Below the pieces are notes generated by a model that saw nothing but the letters and a program-made list of their open reading frames with translations, was not told where the DNA came from and made no database searches. From Phycicoccus sp. (GTDB lineage: Bacteria; Actinomycetota; Actinomycetes; Actinomycetales; Dermatophilaceae), in assembly GCA_017993715.1 (NCBI GenBank), contig JAGOME010000004.1:1-64000 (forward strand): a DNA stretch of 64,000 nucleotides. Reading direction: 5' to 3'. A program made the translations under genes and the position numbers. How positions within the stretch are numbered: position 1 is the first letter of the stretch; the number at the start of each line of letters is the position of its first letter. Positions 24,300 to 59,925 of this stretch are shown here, in pieces.

Positions 24300-24663
24300 G
24301 GGGGTGATCGGTTTCGACATTGGCCGTTGAGCCAGGAGAAGCGGGTCGAGGATGCACGGTTATCTCGTTAACGATCCGTGCAAACCAATAGGTGCCAATT
24401 CCAAGCGCACCGACTTCGCCCTCGCCGCCTGAGCGAGCCCGGAGTCCGTTGGCCTATGTGTGATCTCGGCATAGTTACCAGCGTCATCTAGAGATCTTGC
24501 TGCGTCGTCATGTCGGGGGACGGCGCGGGACTCTTACTCGACTGGGCCTGTCAGCGAACGTGTGCGCTCGCGCGCTGGGGCCGAGAAAATCCTTACGCGC
24601 ACTGCGCCCGGAGAAGTCCTGGTCTGCCGTCAGTGGACGCGGGTTCGATTCCCGCCACCTCCA
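24300..24663 (+). ncRNA. ssrA: tmRNA
   Basis: The 5' end GGGGGTG pairs with CACCTCC at 24656–24662 to form the acceptor stem. The 5' side continues ATCGGTTTCGAC. The 3' side has the T-arm GCGGGTTCGATTCCCGC. The tag frame starts at GCC 24394 and ends at TGA 24430–24432, encoding ANSKRTDFALAA, with the usual ALAA degradation end. The terminal CCA appears not to be fully encoded beyond position 24663. It works with SmpB to rescue stalled ribosomes. Confidence 0.95.
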
Positions 24664-24693
24664 CCCTCGCGGCTCGTCCCACGCTCGTTCACC

Positions 24694-52590: not shown

Positions 52591-53634
52591 TCACCTGGTG
52601 GCCGCGCTGTTCAGGTCGTCGAGGACCCGACGCAGCCGCGCGCGTCCCGCCGTCGGCGAGAAATGGCGCTCCCATCGTTCCCTGGACGCGGTGACGGTGG
52701 CGCCACGGTCTGCGGGCGACGTGCCCAGCAAGTCCCCCAGGGTGTGAGCCAGCGCTGCTGGGTCGCCGGTGGCGGCAACCCAGGGGTAGTGGCTGCCCGC
52801 TATCTCGGGCAGTGCCCCGGCATCGGATATGACGAACGGGACACGAGCGCTCATGGCTTCGGTGACGACCAGCCCGAAAGACTCGGGTACCAGGGAGGGG
52901 AACACTGCGACGTCGATCCGACCGAAGAAGTCCGAACGATCGATCCAGCCGGTGTATTGAACGCGACCATCGATCCTGGACAGGGCGTCCTCGATGATGC
53001 GCTGGTCATGAGTCGACGCAAAGCGAGCGGCGCCAGCCACGACGAGTTCCAAGGGTGGACTGACCCCTTCGCGGCTCAGTTGCTGAACGGCCGCGGCGAG
53101 GATGGGCAGACCTTTTTCGACTGTCAGCCGTCCCAGATAACCCAAGCGGACCACGGGCTGCGCTCCCGGCACGACGTGCACCGGGAATTCCGGACTCCAG
53201 TTCCACAGCACTCTGGCCCCGGGCAACGCCCGAGCCAGCGTCTCACTGGGGACGAGGGTCATCAGTGCCTGGGCGCGGGCCAACCTCGCGGCGGTGCGTT
53301 GCACGCCGCTCGGCGCCAGGTGCAGGTGGACGACGCGTTGGCGGTGGCCCGCGGTGGCCAAGGCGGGGACCAGGCCGTTGCACCACAACACACCTCTGCG
53401 GTGTCTGGTGTCCCATGACCGCAGTTGAGCCATGTAGGTGCGTCGGTCGCCGGCCAGGCGCGTGACTCGATGGCCGCGAGCCTGCCCCTGGTCGAGCACT
53501 CCACCGTCGTAGGCCGGGCCCACGAGGCTGACGTCGACCCCGAGATCGGTCAGGGCGTCCGCGATCTCCAGCAACATGACCTCACCGCCGCCAATGTCCC
53601 CGTTGTTTGCCGCGAGAACCACGGTGGGTTTCAT
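52591..53634 (-). CDS. GT4 glycosyltransferase
   Basis: This 347-residue GT-B enzyme has TVVLAANNGDIGGGEVMLLEIADAL at the start, VRLGYLGRLTVEKGLPILAAAV, and FPSLVPESFGLVVTEAMSARVPFVISD (E-x7-E donor motif). The ATG at 53634 overlaps the upstream gene's end. It is the last gene of the nonulosonate operon that runs leftward from 59760. Confidence 0.88.
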   Translation of the reverse strand: MKPTVVLAANNGDIGGGEVMLLEIADALTDLGVDVSLVGPAYDGGVLDQGQARGHRVTRLAGDRRTYMAQLRSWDTRHRRGVLWCNGLVPALATAGHRQRVVHLHLAPSGVQRTAARLARAQALMTLVPSETLARALPGARVLWNWSPEFPVHVVPGAQPVVRLGYLGRLTVEKGLPILAAAVQQLSREGVSPPLELVVAGAARFASTHDQRIIEDALSRIDGRVQYTGWIDRSDFFGRIDVAVFPSLVPESFGLVVTEAMSARVPFVISDAGALPEIAGSHYPWVAATGDPAALAHTLGDLLGTSPADRGATVTASRERWERHFSPTAGRARLRRVLDDLNSAATR

Positions 53635-54716
53635 GGGAACGCTGCCCGCTGGTAGGTCTCGGCGATCCCCTGACACATCTCTGCGATAGTCGGCCAGGCG
53701 TCAGGTAACGGCGGCCTGCGGGCAAGATCTCGCCCCTGGATAGCGATCTTGGCGGCGACAGCGGCGTGGTCGTGTCGTTCGACGAGGCAATCCGGACCCA
53801 GGATCTCCGGGTTCCCCCCGACGGGGGTGGCGACGACCCCAAGCCCGTAGACGATGGCGTCGAGAATGGAGTAGGACGTGTTCTCCCACACCGAAAGCTG
53901 AGCCAGGACGTCCGACTCTGCCAGCAAGTCCGTCGGTTCGATATGGCCGGGGAAGGCGACCCTCGAACCCACCCCGAGTCGATCCGCGCGCGCGTGCAAC
54001 TCACTCGCCAAGGGGCCGGCGCCCGCGATGGTCAGCCGAGCATCAGGGTGATCCCGCACTAGGAGAGCGAAGGCGGCGATCAGGTCCTTGAGTCCCTTCT
54101 CGGGTGCGAGCCGAGCCAGGGATGCCACGTGCAGTCCCGGTGCGCGGGCGACCGCAGGGCTGAGCCGATCGATGCCGTTGTGGATGACGACCAGTCGGGT
54201 AGCCCGCCCGGGATGCCATTTCTCCTGCACCACCTGTTTGGTCGACTGCGACACTGCGATGAGGGCATCGGCCCGACGCAGGCGGGCCGTGTGAGCCAGG
54301 GCCTTGAGTCGGGAACGCCAGATGGTGCCGTGATAGACCAAGTCGTCGCGGGCGATCCCGTGCTCAGTGGTGACCAGGCTGGTCTCGTGACCGACGGTGG
54401 CGATCGCGGCCAACAGATCGGCATACGACAGGTGTGAGTGCACGACGGCGGGCCGAACCGTCCGGATCAGTCGGCGCAGCTCCCTGACGCCGGCCGGAAT
54501 GCCGTCGGCGGGCGAGACCCGTGCGGTCACCACGGCGGCGCCCAACGTTCTCAAGCGGTCGGCCAGGGGTCCGTCGGGGCACACCACGATCAGGCGCCAT
54601 CCCGGGATCCCCTGACCCGCCACGTCGAGCACGTGCCTGGCCACTCCGCCTAGATCGGCGACCGGGATGACCCACAACGTGGTGGGTGGGGCAAGGGGTG
54701 AGCGGGCGGCATTCAT
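53631..54716 (-). CDS. GT4 glycosyltransferase
   Basis: This 361-residue GT-B enzyme has VIPVADLGGVARHVLDVAGQG at the N-terminus, HVASLARLAPEKGLKDLIAAF, and SVWENTSYSILDAIVYGLGVVATPVGGNPEIL at the donor end. The ATG at 54716 lies eleven bases after the NeuB-fusion stop; an upstream in-frame start at 54743 would overlap it. Confidence 0.87.
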   Translation of the reverse strand: MNAARSPLAPPTTLWVIPVADLGGVARHVLDVAGQGIPGWRLIVVCPDGPLADRLRTLGAAVVTARVSPADGIPAGVRELRRLIRTVRPAVVHSHLSYADLLAAIATVGHETSLVTTEHGIARDDLVYHGTIWRSRLKALAHTARLRRADALIAVSQSTKQVVQEKWHPGRATRLVVIHNGIDRLSPAVARAPGLHVASLARLAPEKGLKDLIAAFALLVRDHPDARLTIAGAGPLASELHARADRLGVGSRVAFPGHIEPTDLLAESDVLAQLSVWENTSYSILDAIVYGLGVVATPVGGNPEILGPDCLVERHDHAAVAAKIAIQGRDLARRPPLPDAWPTIAEMCQGIAETYQRAAFP

Positions 54717-54726
54717 GGTTGGTCGG

Positions 54727-56982
54727 TCAGAACCACTGCTCAAGGCGTTCGAGCGCGATCCAGAAACCCTCGCCGTCGTTGACGTGGCCCTGCCAGATCT
54801 CGGGAATGAAGCTCGCCTCGGGCGCGAGGCTGTCGAGTTGCTGGGCCAGCAGCGCCCAGTCGATCTCGCCGTCTCCGACCTGCACCCCCTCGCCGTCGAC
54901 GCCCACGGCGTCCACGAGGTGTAGGTGCTCGGCGTGAGGGGCCAACAGGTCCGTGGTCGCTGCGAAACCTAGGCCGAGATGGTTGGCGGCGAGCTTGGAG
55001 TGGGAGACGTCGAAGCAAAGGCGTCGGTTGTAGCGGGCAGCGAAGTCTGCGGTGTCGTGTGGATCGACGAAGAGGTTGCAAAAAAGCTGGCCACCCATAT
55101 ACCAGGGGTAGGGGGGCAGGGTCTGGGCCACGAGCCGCACGCCGCTGTCGTCCACGCGAGCCAGGCCGGCCGCTACCCGGGCGTACATCGCCGCCCGCTC
55201 CTCGGGCCGGACGAAGGCGTCCGTGGTGAAACCGCCGAGACTGGCGATGATGACGGGGTCTTGGTCGACCTTGGTGAAGTAGCGGCGCATCGCCCGTGTC
55301 GTGTCGACGACCCGCTGCAACTCAACGATCGAGCGCTCCCAGTGAGCGTCGTCGTCCGAGGCCAGGTTGAGCAGGAAGTCGCCGGCGAACAGGTCGGGGG
55401 AGTGGGTCGTGAAGGACATCGGCAGGCCACCGGGCCAGTCCGCGAAGACCTCATCGACGTCGAGGTCGAGGTCCTTGTAGGAGAAGTGGAACTCGAGGAA
55501 GTCAGGGGTGCAGTCGCGGGTCATCGTGTTGACGTCGTGGTAGCGCACGGCCAGTCCCCACGGGCGGCGGAACGCGAACTGTCGGCCGGTCGGAGCGGCG
55601 TCGCCGAGGTCGGTGGCGTAGAAGAAGTCGCCCGGCTCGAGGGCGCGCAGGGCTGATCGACCGACCAGTCGGTCGAAGGCGTTGGGCTGCAACCCTCGAC
55701 CGGGGCTCTTGATGTCAACGGCCTCCGCGGTGATGGTCTCGCCGGGCTCGATTCGCCGGGCGGCCACCAGGCTCTTGGCCAGGTTGACGCGGTTCATCAT
55801 CTCCCCCGTGGAGATGGAGCGAGGAGCAGCGGAGCCTAGGGACTCCTCGACCTCGCGGATTCGCTTGACCATCTCGGCGAACTCGTCGGGGAGCAGGCTG
55901 ACCTTGTGGTCGTTGCCTTCGAGCCCTCGATCGATCGTGAAGTGCTTCTCGATGATCCGAGCGCCAAGCGCCACCGCGGCGAGCGGGACGTGATAGCCGC
56001 GCTCGTGGCCGGAGTAACCGACGGGGCACTGACCGATCTCCTGCAGGCGCTTGAGGTAGGAGAGGTTCACGTCCTTGTAGGGCGCCGGATAGGTCGACTG
56101 GCAGTGCAGGAGCGCGTGGGGTGTGCCCGTGGAGCGCAGGAGGTCGACGGTCTCGCGGATCTCGCCCTCGGTCGACATCCCGGTGGACACCACGAGGGGA
56201 ATGCCGCTTGCGGCCATGTGCCGGAGCAGGGCGTGGTTGGTCATGTCGGCTGAGGCAACCTTGAGTGCTGGCACGCCGTACTCGACAAGGCGATCGACGC
56301 TGCGTGGGTCCCACGCGGTGCACATGATGTCGATTCCGACGGCGGCGCAGTGGTCGAAGACCTCGAAGAGGTGTTCGGCGTCCAGGTTGTACTTGGCCAG
56401 CAGATCGAGGGTGTATTGCGGCCCGAGGTCTTCCCCGCCGGAGCCTGCCGACCCCTGGCGATAGACCGCATCCATGTCTCGCAGTTGGAACTTGACCACG
56501 TCGGCTCCTGAGCGCAGGCTCAGGTCGACGAGTTCCTTGGCCAGCGTGACGCTGCCCTGATGGTTGATGCCGATCTCGCTGATGACCAACGTGCGGGTGT
56601 CGTCCCCGACGAGATGGCGGCCGATCTGCAGCTCGTCGCTGCGGTTGACGGCGACGGCCACGAGGTGGCCCCGCTCGTCGATGAGGGGCAAGTGGTCGAT
56701 GCCGGGAGCGAACTGCTCACGGATCACCGAGGGCGGGGACGTGATCGAGAGCGAGCGCGGTGCCCGGTTGGCGACCTCGATGGTCGCGATGTCCAGGTCC
56801 AGGGCCGCCCCCGCGCTCACCCAACGGCGGAAGTCGCCGTCGGACAGCGCCCCGTCGAGGTGCCCGTGGGCGTCGACGACAAAGATGACGCGGGCCCGGT
56901 TGGCGGTGATCTTCTCGAGGGCCCGACGCACCGGATCCTCGCCATAGACGACATAGGGCGCGAGCTGGCGTTCGATGATCAT
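54727..56982 (-). CDS. neuB: multidomain nonulosonic acid synthase: CBS – NeuB – SAF – TIM barrel
   Basis: This is a 751-residue four-part fusion. Residues 1–115 are a CBS pair (ALEKITANRARVIFVVDAHG, IDHLPLIDERGHLVAVA). Residues about 130–370 are a NeuB aldolase-like barrel (ISEIGINHQGSVTLAKELVD, VKFQLR, VSTGMSTEGEI, CQSTYPAPYKDVNL, GYSGHERGYHVPLAAVALG, EKHFTIDR). Residues about 405–465 are a SAF/antifreeze-like cap (DIKSPGRGLQPNAFDRLVG). Residues about 475–750 form a second TIM-barrel domain of xylose-isomerase type (LRFDVSH-like LCFDVSHSKLA, HLHLVDAVGVDGEGVQVGDG). NeuB condenses phosphoenolpyruvate with an N-acyl-aminosugar. CBS and barrel parts may give nucleotide sensing and an extra sugar step. 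Stand-alone NeuB is only about 350 residues. Overlaps neuA by four bases. Confidence 0.9.
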   Translation of the reverse strand: MIIERQLAPYVVYGEDPVRRALEKITANRARVIFVVDAHGHLDGALSDGDFRRWVSAGAALDLDIATIEVANRAPRSLSITSPPSVIREQFAPGIDHLPLIDERGHLVAVAVNRSDELQIGRHLVGDDTRTLVISEIGINHQGSVTLAKELVDLSLRSGADVVKFQLRDMDAVYRQGSAGSGGEDLGPQYTLDLLAKYNLDAEHLFEVFDHCAAVGIDIMCTAWDPRSVDRLVEYGVPALKVASADMTNHALLRHMAASGIPLVVSTGMSTEGEIRETVDLLRSTGTPHALLHCQSTYPAPYKDVNLSYLKRLQEIGQCPVGYSGHERGYHVPLAAVALGARIIEKHFTIDRGLEGNDHKVSLLPDEFAEMVKRIREVEESLGSAAPRSISTGEMMNRVNLAKSLVAARRIEPGETITAEAVDIKSPGRGLQPNAFDRLVGRSALRALEPGDFFYATDLGDAAPTGRQFAFRRPWGLAVRYHDVNTMTRDCTPDFLEFHFSYKDLDLDVDEVFADWPGGLPMSFTTHSPDLFAGDFLLNLASDDDAHWERSIVELQRVVDTTRAMRRYFTKVDQDPVIIASLGGFTTDAFVRPEERAAMYARVAAGLARVDDSGVRLVAQTLPPYPWYMGGQLFCNLFVDPHDTADFAARYNRRLCFDVSHSKLAANHLGLGFAATTDLLAPHAEHLHLVDAVGVDGEGVQVGDGEIDWALLAQQLDSLAPEASFIPEIWQGHVNDGEGFWIALERLEQWF

Positions 56983-57695
56983 GCGGGGGCTTCCGTCCGG
57001 GGGGCAGGGTGGGTCGCGAGGTCTCGCACGGTCGCCGCGGCGACATCGAGATCAATCTCGCTGTCCACGTCGATGCCCTCGACCTCGTCCATGACGAACA
57101 GAGCGATCCGGCCCCCCAACCGGTTGTCGAGTTGGTCATAGACCCAGGGGCGGGTCACATAGAGCGAGCCGGTCTCGCGGTACCGCAGGGTGGCAGGGGT
57201 GAGATCCTGTCGGCGCGGTCGGGCTCCAACAGCGTAGTCCGCGCGCGGCGGATCTCCCGCCCACCAGAGGAAGGGTGCCTGGGCGACAACGCCGACCATC
57301 GAATCGATCTCCGACGACGCGAACTCGGCGACCGCCCGATCCAGGGTGCCGGGGAGACGAATGGGGGAAGTGGCTTGGAGCAGCATGACGGCCGCCGGCT
57401 CACCGCGGTCCTCGCGCCACCAGTCCAAGGCATGCCGGACAACCGGCTCGGTGGCTGTGGTGTCCTGGGCCAGCTCGGCCGGCCGCAGGAAGGGCACGAG
57501 CGCGCCCGCCGCGCGTGCCACCTCGGCGATCTCGGGGTCATCGGTGGTCACCAGGACGTTCAGCCCGGACGAACACGCCAGCGCCTGCTCGATGGTCCAC
57601 ACCACGAGCGGCTTACCGCCGAGGTCGCGCAGGTTCTTTCGAGGCACCCCTTTGGAGCCGCCGCGTACGGGGATCACGCACAGCACGGATGTCAC
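56979..57695 (-). CDS. neuA: CMP-nonulosonate cytidylyltransferase
   Basis: This 238-residue enzyme activates the nonulosonic acid with CTP. It has IPVRGGSKGVPRKNLRDLGGKPLVVWTI, LLQATSPIRLPGTLD, RYRETGSLYVTRP and DVEGIDVDSEIDLDVA-like DEVEGIDVDSEIDL. The GTG at 57695 overlaps the upstream stop (GTGA). The longer frame to 57824 would run into the upstream gene and lacks family sequence. Confidence 0.92.
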   Translation of the reverse strand: MTSVLCVIPVRGGSKGVPRKNLRDLGGKPLVVWTIEQALACSSGLNVLVTTDDPEIAEVARAAGALVPFLRPAELAQDTTATEPVVRHALDWWREDRGEPAAVMLLQATSPIRLPGTLDRAVAEFASSEIDSMVGVVAQAPFLWWAGDPPRADYAVGARPRRQDLTPATLRYRETGSLYVTRPWVYDQLDNRLGGRIALFVMDEVEGIDVDSEIDLDVAAATVRDLATHPAPRTEAPA

Positions 57696-58759
57696 GACTC
57701 CATCATGGCCCGGACCTGCTGCGCGATGGCGAGCGCAGGGTTCAGGTCGGGCACAGCGGGCGGTGGCGTCGGCTCTCCGCCCCAGGGGCGCATGCCGTAG
57801 CGCACCCAAAAATCTTGCAACCAATCCGGCGGGTTCTCGAAGTGAACCCAGGCGGGTATGCCGCGTGCGGCGGCCTCGAGGACTCCTGTGCTGAACGCAC
57901 TGACGACGGGTCGTTGAAGCTCCGGCAGAGCCACGCCGCTGCGGTCGAGGGTGATCCCGGTGCGTTCCCAGCGACGGTGAATGGCACGCGAGACCCGATC
58001 GGTCTCAGCAGGGTGCGGCCGATACGTCGCGCCGGTCTCTCGGATGAAGGACTCGGCCGAGGCCACGAGCGCGCGACGGGGCAACTCTGCAGCGTGGAGC
58101 TGGCCCAGATAGGCGGGTGCACGGGCCGGATCGATCGACTGGGCGGCGGCCGGTATCCGGCCCCGGGCTTCCCACTGCAGGGAGGACCCCACCACGCGAG
58201 CCGTCACATCGCTGCGGGAGGACGTCCAGAAGTCTGCATCCTCTTGCGACCACGCCAGCAGAGTCGTCCCAGGCGCTAAAGGTGGTGCAAAGGGGGTGAG
58301 CAAGCCGTGCTGAACGGTGACAAAGGTCGCGCCAACGGTCTGGGTCGTCTCGAACGCGGCCGCGCCGATGGGCAGGAAGTGGCCGATCGCGACGGCTACC
58401 GTCTCAGCCGCGATCAGGCCGGACATTGCCTCCGCGAGAGGCTGCCGGGTGTGTCGCCACTGCCCTGCTGGCAGCAGGTCGATGATCGGCGAGGAACTGA
58501 TCAGGGTGGCATCCCGGGCGTCGAGATCGCGCAAGGGCGTCAGGACGGACTGGAGCGCCGTAGGGGACCGCGAATCCAGGACGCCGACGACACGTGCGGC
58601 TCCACGCGCGGTCATGGACGAGCGGGTGACCCAGACCTCGTGGGTCGCTGCCGGCCCGCGCATGGCCACCCAGCGCCCACGCAACCTGCGAGTCACGGAC
58701 TGTCGGCCGAGCTGCCAACGCTGCCAGGCGTCGAGATCGGCCGGGAACGTTAAGCCCAC
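57692..58759 (-). CDS. putative HP-motif glycosyltransferase of the nonulosonate operon
   Basis: This 355-residue protein starts at the GTG at 58759, with GGAG five bases upstream. TFVTVQHGLLTPFAPPLAPGT, ATYRPHPAETDR and VVSAFSTGVLEAAARGIP are visible. The RPHPAE box and a late S-x-(S/T)-G resemble the HP and S/T motifs of bacterial sialyl/polysialyl transferases. Its place directly before neuA supports transfer of the CMP-activated sugar. The assignment is by motif only. Confidence 0.6.
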   Translation of the reverse strand: MGLTFPADLDAWQRWQLGRQSVTRRLRGRWVAMRGPAATHEVWVTRSSMTARGAARVVGVLDSRSPTALQSVLTPLRDLDARDATLISSSPIIDLLPAGQWRHTRQPLAEAMSGLIAAETVAVAIGHFLPIGAAAFETTQTVGATFVTVQHGLLTPFAPPLAPGTTLLAWSQEDADFWTSSRSDVTARVVGSSLQWEARGRIPAAAQSIDPARAPAYLGQLHAAELPRRALVASAESFIRETGATYRPHPAETDRVSRAIHRRWERTGITLDRSGVALPELQRPVVSAFSTGVLEAAARGIPAWVHFENPPDWLQDFWVRYGMRPWGGEPTPPPAVPDLNPALAIAQQVRAMMES

Positions 58760-59760
58760 AAAGACTCCAAGCCCCGTGCGCGGTGCAGGAACGTGTGCTC
58801 CGCCAGCGTGCGCGCCTGGCCTCGAGCCCGCAGCTCGCGCGACCAACGATCGTCGCGAGCCGCCCGGCGAGCGAGGTCGATGGCCTCTTCGGGCGAGGTG
58901 AACACGGCGACCTCGGTTCCGGGATCGTAAAGGTCGCCGATGTCGGGGCGATCGACGAGCTGGAGCCCACCCACGCCTGGCGTCTCGAAGGTCCGCATCG
59001 TGAATCCGTCTTGGTCGAAGTGGATGTTCAGCGAGGCGGTCGCCCCGGACATCACCCCGTAGGCATCGGCTCGTGGCAGGTCGCGGGCCGACGGGAGGTC
59101 TGGGGTGGACACCCGCCAGGTGCGGGCTCGATCGGCCAGATGGTGAGACCAATCGCGTCCGTAGGCCCTTACCGGCACTCCTGCGGCATGGAGACGGCAC
59201 AGCAGGTCTTCACGCACCGGGTAGCGGGCGCCGACGAAGACCACCTCCTGAGCGGGACGAGGAGTGTAGGTCACGGTGGTGTCGAACGCGCCCGGTACCA
59301 GGAGCACATCGCGGCCGGCCTTGCGGAAGGCGGAGACGTCTAGTGGCGAGTAGCTCGCCAAAAGTCCTGCTGCATCCAGAGTGGCGGCCGTGTGGCGCGT
59401 CCGCCTGACCTCGTCGTAGAGCCACAGGGCGTGTGGGCCTGGCCGGGCGTTCAGCAGATCCCACAGGTCGGCTCCGAACGCATCGGCCTTGATGAGCAGG
59501 ACAACGTCAGGATTCGTCGTTCGGATGGCGTCAACGGCCTTGGCTGTCGCGGCCACGTCAACCGTTTCACGAGTCGACATTCGCCCGCTGACGCGATTAG
59601 CCAGCTCGCTTGCCTTGACGCGTGCCTTGGCCGCGACGGTGCTGTGCTCGTCGTACCGGTGGGTCGATGTCTCGTAACCCAACGTTGTGAAGGCGTCCTG
59701 CAGGGCGCGCCAATAGCCGTGGAAAGAGGGACTGATGATGAGGAGTCGTCGGGCGCTCAC
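58750..59760 (-). CDS. CgeB-like glycosyltransferase
   Basis: This 336-residue protein has RRLLIISPSFHGYWRALQDAF, DVVLLIKADAFG, FVGARYPVREDLLCRL and the C-terminal MRTFETPGVGGLQLVDRPD with FTSPEEAIDLARRA. This is the pattern of the CgeB/DUF3880 GT-B proteins (spore-crust maturation in Bacillus). The GTG at 59760 has GGGAGG eight bases upstream and is preferred over 59805. It heads the leftward operon of six overlapping genes ending at 52591. Confidence 0.8.
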   Translation of the reverse strand: MSARRLLIISPSFHGYWRALQDAFTTLGYETSTHRYDEHSTVAAKARVKASELANRVSGRMSTRETVDVAATAKAVDAIRTTNPDVVLLIKADAFGADLWDLLNARPGPHALWLYDEVRRTRHTAATLDAAGLLASYSPLDVSAFRKAGRDVLLVPGAFDTTVTYTPRPAQEVVFVGARYPVREDLLCRLHAAGVPVRAYGRDWSHHLADRARTWRVSTPDLPSARDLPRADAYGVMSGATASLNIHFDQDGFTMRTFETPGVGGLQLVDRPDIGDLYDPGTEVAVFTSPEEAIDLARRAARDDRWSRELRARGQARTLAEHTFLHRARGLESLWA

Positions 59761-59925
59761 CGAATGATCCTCCCCGCACGTCCGGTCGGACACATGTGAG
59801 GGCACAGACGTACTTCATCAAGGGCCACGACCAGGACGCCGCGGCGTGATCGCATGCTCCAAGGCTACTGCGTGGCCGCGGCGCACGCTCGCGCCGAGTC
59901 CGGGTGTGGGTCGTACGCTGTGGCT

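Follow-up and report, generated by a model that had tools for sequence, protein, structure and literature searches.

In a 64,000-nucleotide stretch of a Phycicoccus sp. genome (assembly GCA_017993715.1, contig JAGOME010000004.1; hereafter the window), one gene encodes a chain of four parts: an N-terminal CBS part, the phosphoenolpyruvate (PEP)-condensing barrel of a NeuB-type nonulosonic acid synthase, a SAF (antifreeze-like) domain and a C-terminal xylose isomerase-like TIM barrel. With a probability of about one half, we read this fusion, the sole NeuB match in its own 3.72 Mb genome, as a synthase for nonulosonates of the 2-keto-3-deoxynononic acid (KDN) type, with a regulatory CBS part and a barrel preparing the hexose acceptor, in a surface-glycan operon.

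All four domains exceeded their Pfam cut-offs, which bears out the 751-residue architecture that the initial annotation had read from the sequence: CBS (amino acids (aa) 9–55, 30.7 bits against a cut-off of 24), the NeuB family PF03102 (aa 151–385, 260.8 bits), SAF (aa 403–459, 42.2 bits) and AP_endonuc_2 (PF01261, ‘xylose isomerase-like TIM barrel’; aa 523–736, 57.8 bits against 31.1). The AlphaFold2 model of the whole chain had a mean predicted local distance difference test score (pLDDT) of 86.1 and a predicted template modelling score (pTM) of 0.54; the domains are well modelled, and their mutual placement is not, given that pTM.

Fold search with the whole-chain model aligned the synthase part with Neisseria meningitidis NeuB (2wqp; Z 38.5, root-mean-square deviation (rmsd) 2.8 over 336 residues). 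The fusion shares with that enzyme (NeuB/NANAS; 1xuu, 2wqp) the PEP-condensing barrel, the SAF domain, the catalytic residues and 30–31% identity, but differs in a Ser for Arg314, in two extra domains and in having no NeuC partner. We compared residues across a table of 64 rows, excluding L057 (the same gene as L080) and L075 (a near-copy of L074); L081 has no NeuB columns and was counted for C-terminal columns only. Every fusion row having the column retains catalytic E136, K164, Q166 and K241 and metal-binding H326 and H347. Domain scores and catalytic residues identify the NeuB part as a nonulosonate synthase, which very probably functions as a PEP-condensing enzyme. It is not a Neu5Ac (N-acetylneuraminic acid) or Pse (pseudaminic acid) synthase by model cut-off, Arg314 or partner genes: the best NCBIfam model, NeuB_NnaB (TIGR03569), scored 309.2 bits, under its equivalog cut-off of 399.65, and PseI (TIGR03586) scored 222.5 bits, under 340.25.

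The acceptor is best approached through one position. S426 of the fusion aligns with Arg314 of N. meningitidis NeuB, a register supported by the titles of the R314A and R314K entries (4ipi, 4ipj). The accessible text of PMC6795526 describes Arg314 as the only SAF residue in the NeuB active site, contacting N-acetylmannosamine (ManNAc) and positioning its N-acetyl group, and the title of its reference 13 calls the residue essential for catalysis. Across 53 fusion rows the column holds Ser in 50, Thr in 1 and Ala in 2; Arg occupies it in all nine plain NeuB rows (L043–L051) of the same scan. By sequence, this suggests an acceptor without an N-acetyl group, as a hint and not as proof.

A NeuB–isomerase fusion tied to KDN is already known in Serratia. 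As described in the accessible part of PMC9000132, the NeuB of the Serratia marcescens KL1/KL2 capsules (UMH9, gn773) carries an added COG1082 domain and so, like our fusion, joins NeuB and a sugar isomerase/epimerase domain on one chain; neuB is needed for sialic acid and capsule, and the capsule holds KDN and Neu5Ac at about 20:1. The available text of PMC12077157 again reports KDN as predominant in Serratia, and that of PMC11481543 a Kdn polymer in Streptomyces walls. The Serratia protein differs from the fusion in that the accessible text of PMC9000132 mentions no CBS part, and in serving an enterobacterial capsule, not an actinobacterial glycan operon. By analogy, the fusion most likely works like its Serratia counterpart, as a KDN-type synthase, and on balance we lean towards a non-acetylated acceptor and a KDN-type product. 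The KDN-9-phosphate synthases of Bacteroides and algae, from what is accessible of PMC6200933, resemble the proposed enzyme in their KDN-type product and in using PEP with a mannose-type acceptor, but they use mannose 6-phosphate and a phosphatase step, and no phosphatase gene was seen in the fusion operon. Our literature search, which left subscription papers mostly outside, found no CBS–NeuB chain and no printed account of the CBS-bearing form, its actinobacterial spread or the Arg314 change; PMC9000132 was the only paper found on a NeuB with an isomerase-type domain. The accessible part of a Vibrio/Moritella survey held no fused NeuB of the CBS–NeuB–barrel type.

Precursor genes (NeuC, LegC, PseG, AGE and NanE) were sought in 23 fusion genomes, namely the genome of the window and those of 22 of the 41 fusion loci described below. 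NeuC (TIGR03568) exceeded its cut-off in none of the 23 and in two of five comparison genomes (G601 and G603); LegC (TIGR04181) did so in none of the 23 and in both comparison genomes (G601, G603); PseG (TIGR03590) did so in none of 25 genomes, the 23 among them, and had no match at all in the window’s own genome. The lack of a separate NeuC-type epimerase, noted initially for the window, therefore extends to the full genome and to 22 other genomes with the fusion; judged by the NeuC and LegC scores, the complete NeuC/LegX-type pathway elsewhere in the genome that had been named as counter-evidence did not appear. Against the WecB model (cut-off 210) the two Epimerase_2 genes of the window’s genome scored 204–205 bits; against NeuC they scored 47 and 21. 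That genome also has a PF07221 gene (G000:C79:17374-18414; L090:1758-2978), whose protein scored 369.5 bits against the model for D-mannose isomerase (cut-off 600; only the 347 residues matched, from a 406 aa open reading frame (ORF), were scored) and 30.6 against that for N-acyl-D-glucosamine 2-epimerase; among solved structures it is closest to YihS and sulfoquinovose isomerase. The gene could plausibly supply free mannose. Its resemblance to D-mannose isomerase points to mannose over ManNAc, which fits KDN and lessens the need for the barrel.

Because fold search with the whole model returned, among the matches listed, only NeuB-, KDO8P- and DAHP-synthase-like chains, we modelled and searched the C-terminal domain alone (pLDDT 85.3, pTM 0.88). 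The best fit was Thermotoga ketose 3-epimerase (2zvr; Z 21.6, rmsd 2.8 over 239), with 3wqo (MJ1311; Z 21.3, rmsd 3.0 over 238) and 2ou4 (Z 20.5, rmsd 3.1 over 240) close by; 3wqo was also the nearest solved sequence by profile (E 1e-12). By modelled fold and PF01261, the barrel is of the sugar isomerase/epimerase class, as initially annotated. Mycobacterium tuberculosis endonuclease IV (5zhz) fits about equally well (Z 20.3, rmsd 2.8 over 228), so the reaction cannot be read from the fold. The ketose 3-epimerase and D-tagatose 3-epimerase-like barrels (2zvr, 3wqo, 2ou4) share with the fusion barrel the fold (Z 20–22), DxxH, HxH and a late Glu, but the fusion barrel differs in a strand-5 Gln for Glu, in being fused to a nonulosonate synthase and in being only 13–14% identical.

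Within the barrel, R480, E497, H499, H527, D658, H661, H686, H688, E728 and the motif W730-Q-G-H are invariant in 16 domains (30–83% identity to that of the window), and in the larger table every fusion row having the column keeps D658 and H661 (52 of 52) and H688 and E728 (51 of 51); position 686 is Tyr in L087. The strand-5 Glu position is Gln (Q620) in 49 of 52 rows and Glu in L080, L081 and L087. The His of the ‘HPGG’ motif, kept in the CBS-less L080 and L087, is S581 in the barrel of the window. Metal ligands in the xylose isomerase-like class are Glu, Asp, His and Glu. The structural check for metal ligands proposed with the initial annotation thus gave a divided answer: D658, H688 and E728 are kept and the first Glu is Q620, leaving the four-ligand set incomplete. 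Residue conservation indicates a conserved pocket that is probably working, with an altered metal or acid/base set, and we propose only tentatively that it acts on the acceptor.

Several observations weigh against the KDN reading. Serratia NeuB is likened to the fusion by the description in the accessible part of PMC9000132 only; the protein did not turn up in the plasmid and class samples, although no search was aimed at it by name. We found in print no product measurement for any actinobacterium with the fusion gene. Ser at the Arg314 position also occurs in L089, a plain NeuB-like protein on a Streptomyces plasmid, which is why we gave up treating loss of the Arg as near-proof of KDN and take it only as a hint. 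In the barrel, the canonical strand-5 Glu and HPG His are replaced (Q620, S581). Sub-cut-off LegC-like genes (318–347 bits against 420) occur in 5 of the 23 fusion genomes and a near-cut-off PseG in G591 (135.6 against 153.55 bits), so other nonulosonates are possible in those genomes. PF07221 (AGE-type) is present in 18 of the 23, that of the window included, and in neither of two comparison genomes; the barrel may therefore not be needed for mannose. NanE exceeds its cut-off in 8 of the 23 and is strong (>175 bits) in 4. As an observation apart, the L089 gene (L089:7992-9059, 355 aa) lies in surroundings that by eye resemble a secondary-metabolite cluster.

The initial annotation had offered the barrel as a substitute for NeuC, making ManNAc or another N-acetylated acceptor for a Neu5Ac-like product. 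The empty NeuC search agrees with this, as do the WecB-like Epimerase_2 genes of the window’s genome (WecB gives UDP-ManNAc), the sugar epimerase class of the barrel, the rank of NeuB_NnaB as best NCBIfam model and, in the accessible text of PMC9000132, a little Neu5Ac from Serratia. With Ser at the position responsible for the N-acetyl group, and with the Serratia COG1082–NeuB tied to KDN, ManNAc is an improbable acceptor, and a NeuC-replacing barrel is therefore not the likeliest reading. Further against it are the NeuB_NnaB score, under the equivalog cut-off, the 20:1 excess of KDN over Neu5Ac in the Serratia relative and the best 50 fold matches listed, none of which is titled as acting at C2 of N-acetylglucosamine. 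We consider this substitution unlikely.

Equally improbable is a barrel that follows the synthase and epimerises its product, the nonulosonic acid or an open-chain form of it, to an unusual stereoisomer. The ketose 3-epimerase fold would suit such a role, nonulosonic acid is a 2-keto acid, and the strong conservation of R480, E497, H499, H527, D658, H661, H688 and E728 argues for a pocket in use. A nonulosonic acid, however, is deoxy at position 3 and gives the usual 3-epimerase chemistry no target, and the strand-5 change from Glu to Gln loses what we take to be one of two acid/base residues. The Serratia product is, moreover, ordinary KDN, according to the available text of PMC9000132. We give as little weight to a barrel that has lost enzymatic function and now plays a structural or regulatory role within the chain. 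The strand-5 Gln, the replaced HPG His of the CBS-bearing clade and the mannose isomerase-like gene in trans in the window’s genome would allow it, but Q620 is invariant across the CBS-bearing rows, and D658, H661, H688, E728 and the WQGH motif are unchanged in 16 domains down to 30% identity, a pattern unlike decay. A Leg (legionaminic acid)- or Pse-like product, with precursor enzymes too distant for the models used, also seems improbable: the sub-cut-off LegC-like and PseG-like genes of some fusion genomes and a neighbouring CMP-synthetase that scores best with PseF, under cut-off, speak for it; on the other side, PseI and the plain NeuB of the Leg-type genomes G601 and G603 retain the Arg that the fusion has lost, and the genome of the window lacks a PseG match. 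On Arg314, the model cut-off and the NeuC tests, we reject an ordinary Neu5Ac synthase.

The initial annotation also placed a CBS pair at the N-terminus. One copy exceeds the Pfam cut-off and stands; the second rests on a weak phmmer match of aa 14–109 to the CBS part of an arabinose 5-phosphate isomerase (4o9k), the best solved match to this region, at an E value of only 0.0012. The CBS part of that enzyme belongs to an isomerase of the Kdo (3-deoxy-D-manno-oct-2-ulosonic acid) pathway, and 4o9k is presumably a CBS pair in complex with CMP (cytidine monophosphate)-Kdo, which would fit feedback control through a CMP-sugar; a literature search for CMP-Kdo together with CBS domains found nothing useful. 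The CBS part is probably regulatory, and it might, though we hold this with reserve, bind a CMP-sugar or nucleotide. Beside the CBS-less fusion of L078 lies a gene (L078:5525-7042) for a protein of 505 aa in which a CBS domain is joined to a GHMP kinase, so a CBS part is found on another enzyme of the same neighbourhood.

Under the KDN reading, the fusion would catalyse the committed step in a small operon for a surface glycan. Its NeuB–SAF part would condense PEP with a hexose lacking a C2 N-acetyl group, most likely D-mannose, to KDN or a similar nonulosonic acid; the enzyme encoded by the upstream gene that overlaps the fusion would convert this to a CMP-sugar for use by the glycosyltransferases. 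The fused ketose epimerase-like barrel would most likely prepare or adjust the hexose acceptor in cis, and the CBS part would control the first committed step through nucleotide or CMP-sugar binding. A fully specified version, in which one CBS-gated chain turns a ketohexose into mannose in the barrel, condenses mannose with PEP and answers to CMP-KDN, is speculative and rather doubtful. If that version is true, Ser at the Arg314 position together with the fused barrel would mark KDN synthases now called Neu5Ac synthases in databases, and Nocardioides-, Phycicoccus- and Tetrasphaera-like bacteria would be KDN makers in soil and sludge. A class of synthases recognisable by an active-site change and a fused barrel would allow gene-by-gene testing, and would show a nonulosonate pathway running on only two dedicated enzymes, synthase and CMP-synthetase.

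The domain-architecture survey called for at the outset showed that the fusion recurs. Among 50 confirmed related genome loci, 41 (L002–L042) encode the fusion chain and the remaining nine (L043–L051) plain NeuB. The frame is single and open from residue 1 or 3 to 751 in 37 of the 41, which excludes a chance join or assembly artefact; a contig edge cuts it in L039 and L041. The frame is broken in L036 (Phycicoccus sp. HDW14) and L040 (Ornithinimicrobium sp. INDO-MA30-4); in L040 several neighbouring genes also match only partially, which looks like sequencing error. Hosts are mostly Nocardioides, with Phycicoccus, Ornithinimicrobium, Sinomonas and Allobranchiibius, and metagenome-assembled genomes (MAGs) of Micrococcus, Tetrasphaera and Acidimicrobiaceae. 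The only match spanning most of the fusion in plasmid searches was a homologue on Ensifer canadensis plasmid pT173e (47% identity, 100% of the query). A phage search found no match to the C-terminal domain, and on this basis we rejected a phage gene.

The C-terminal domain matched in 23 of 186 whole genomes sampled from the window’s own family, 4 of 396 from the phylum, 9 of 385 from the class of G603 (Terasakiella, Alphaproteobacteria; two of them weak and partial) and 3 of 369 from the class of G601 (a Pseudomonadales genome); no match appeared among 299 genomes from the phylum of L043, a Lachnospiraceae locus, a blank that shows little in the absence of a positive control. CBS-less fusions of about 615–640 aa (L078, L079, L080, L087, L088) occur, with versions in other phyla. 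A tree built from 35 NeuB-domain rows puts the 20 that bear a CBS part on one side of a single branch (99/98), and the CBS-less L078 adjoins them (91/89). Divergent CBS-less NeuB–SAF–barrel proteins of 616–621 aa (L088:3596-8138 and L079:1-2393) adjoin a nucleoside diphosphate-sugar dehydratase gene, in L088 a GDP_Man_Dehyd together with a DHDPS-type gene and a CMP-synthetase; they possibly belong to another nonulosonate pathway with an unusual precursor. A Lachnospiraceae MAG holds a 582 aa frame (L051:7296-9041, approximate) with a CMP-sugar synthetase-like start and a NeuB end, by eye a different pathway fusion.

Around the fusion, the usual actinobacterial gene order is glycosyltransferase, a protein of about 340 aa, CMP-synthetase, fusion and two family 4 glycosyltransferases (GT4), all codirectional and so in the window (Table 1); many actinobacterial loci have an extra gene between the two GT4 genes. 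A CMP-sugar synthetase homologue is present at 47 of 52 fusion loci examined, on the opposite strand in L077, and each of the five others (L018, L019, L029, L079, L087) has less than 1 kb upstream. The CMP-synthetase of the operon scored best with PseF (119.8 bits against a cut-off of 205.7) and probably starts near 57698. No other dedicated nonulosonate enzyme of the operon was recognised by Pfam or NCBIfam. The protein of about 340 aa, for which neither Pfam nor NCBIfam gave a match and the PDB none that convinced, has conserved QHG, LGQLH, YRPHPSE and FSTGVLEAA stretches, which suggest, as a guess, that it is possibly a transferase.

Table 1 Coordinates of the fusion gene, its parts and its operon neighbours in the window
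Feature	Position	Strand	Basis or remark
CBS–NeuB–SAF–TIM-barrel fusion, whole gene including stop	54727..56982	minus	ATG start, 751 aa; Pfam, AlphaFold2 model
CBS part, aa 1–114, probable regulatory domain	56641..56982	minus	Pfam CBS 9–55; 4o9k match 14–109; limits inferred from model
NeuB (PEP-condensing) barrel, aa 115–390	55813..56640	minus	Pfam, fold match, conserved E136, K164, Q166, K241, H326, H347
SAF/antifreeze-like domain, aa 400–460	55603..55785	minus	Pfam; S426 codon 55705-55707, in place of N. meningitidis NeuB Arg314
C-terminal xylose isomerase-like/ketose 3-epimerase-like barrel, aa 466–751	54730..55587	minus	Pfam, own model, fold search
Marked residues of the C-terminal barrel	aa 466–751		H527, Q620, D658, H661, H686, H688, D696, E698, E728
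CMP-nonulosonate synthetase (CTP_transf_3)	56979..57824	minus	Upstream, 4 nt overlap with fusion start; listed ORF begins at TTG
Conserved protein of about 340 aa, no Pfam match	57692..58720	minus	Core of ORF 57692-59200
Glycosyltransferase (Glyco_trans_1_2), conserved operon member	58750..59805	minus	Pfam, conserved neighbourhood
GT4 glycosyltransferase, conserved operon member	53631..54743	minus	Overlaps fusion end as listed (TTG start)
GT4 glycosyltransferase, conserved operon member	52591..53676	minus	Pfam, conserved neighbourhood

Elsewhere in the window, a tmRNA gene lies at 24300-24665, with the tag ANSKRTDFALAA.

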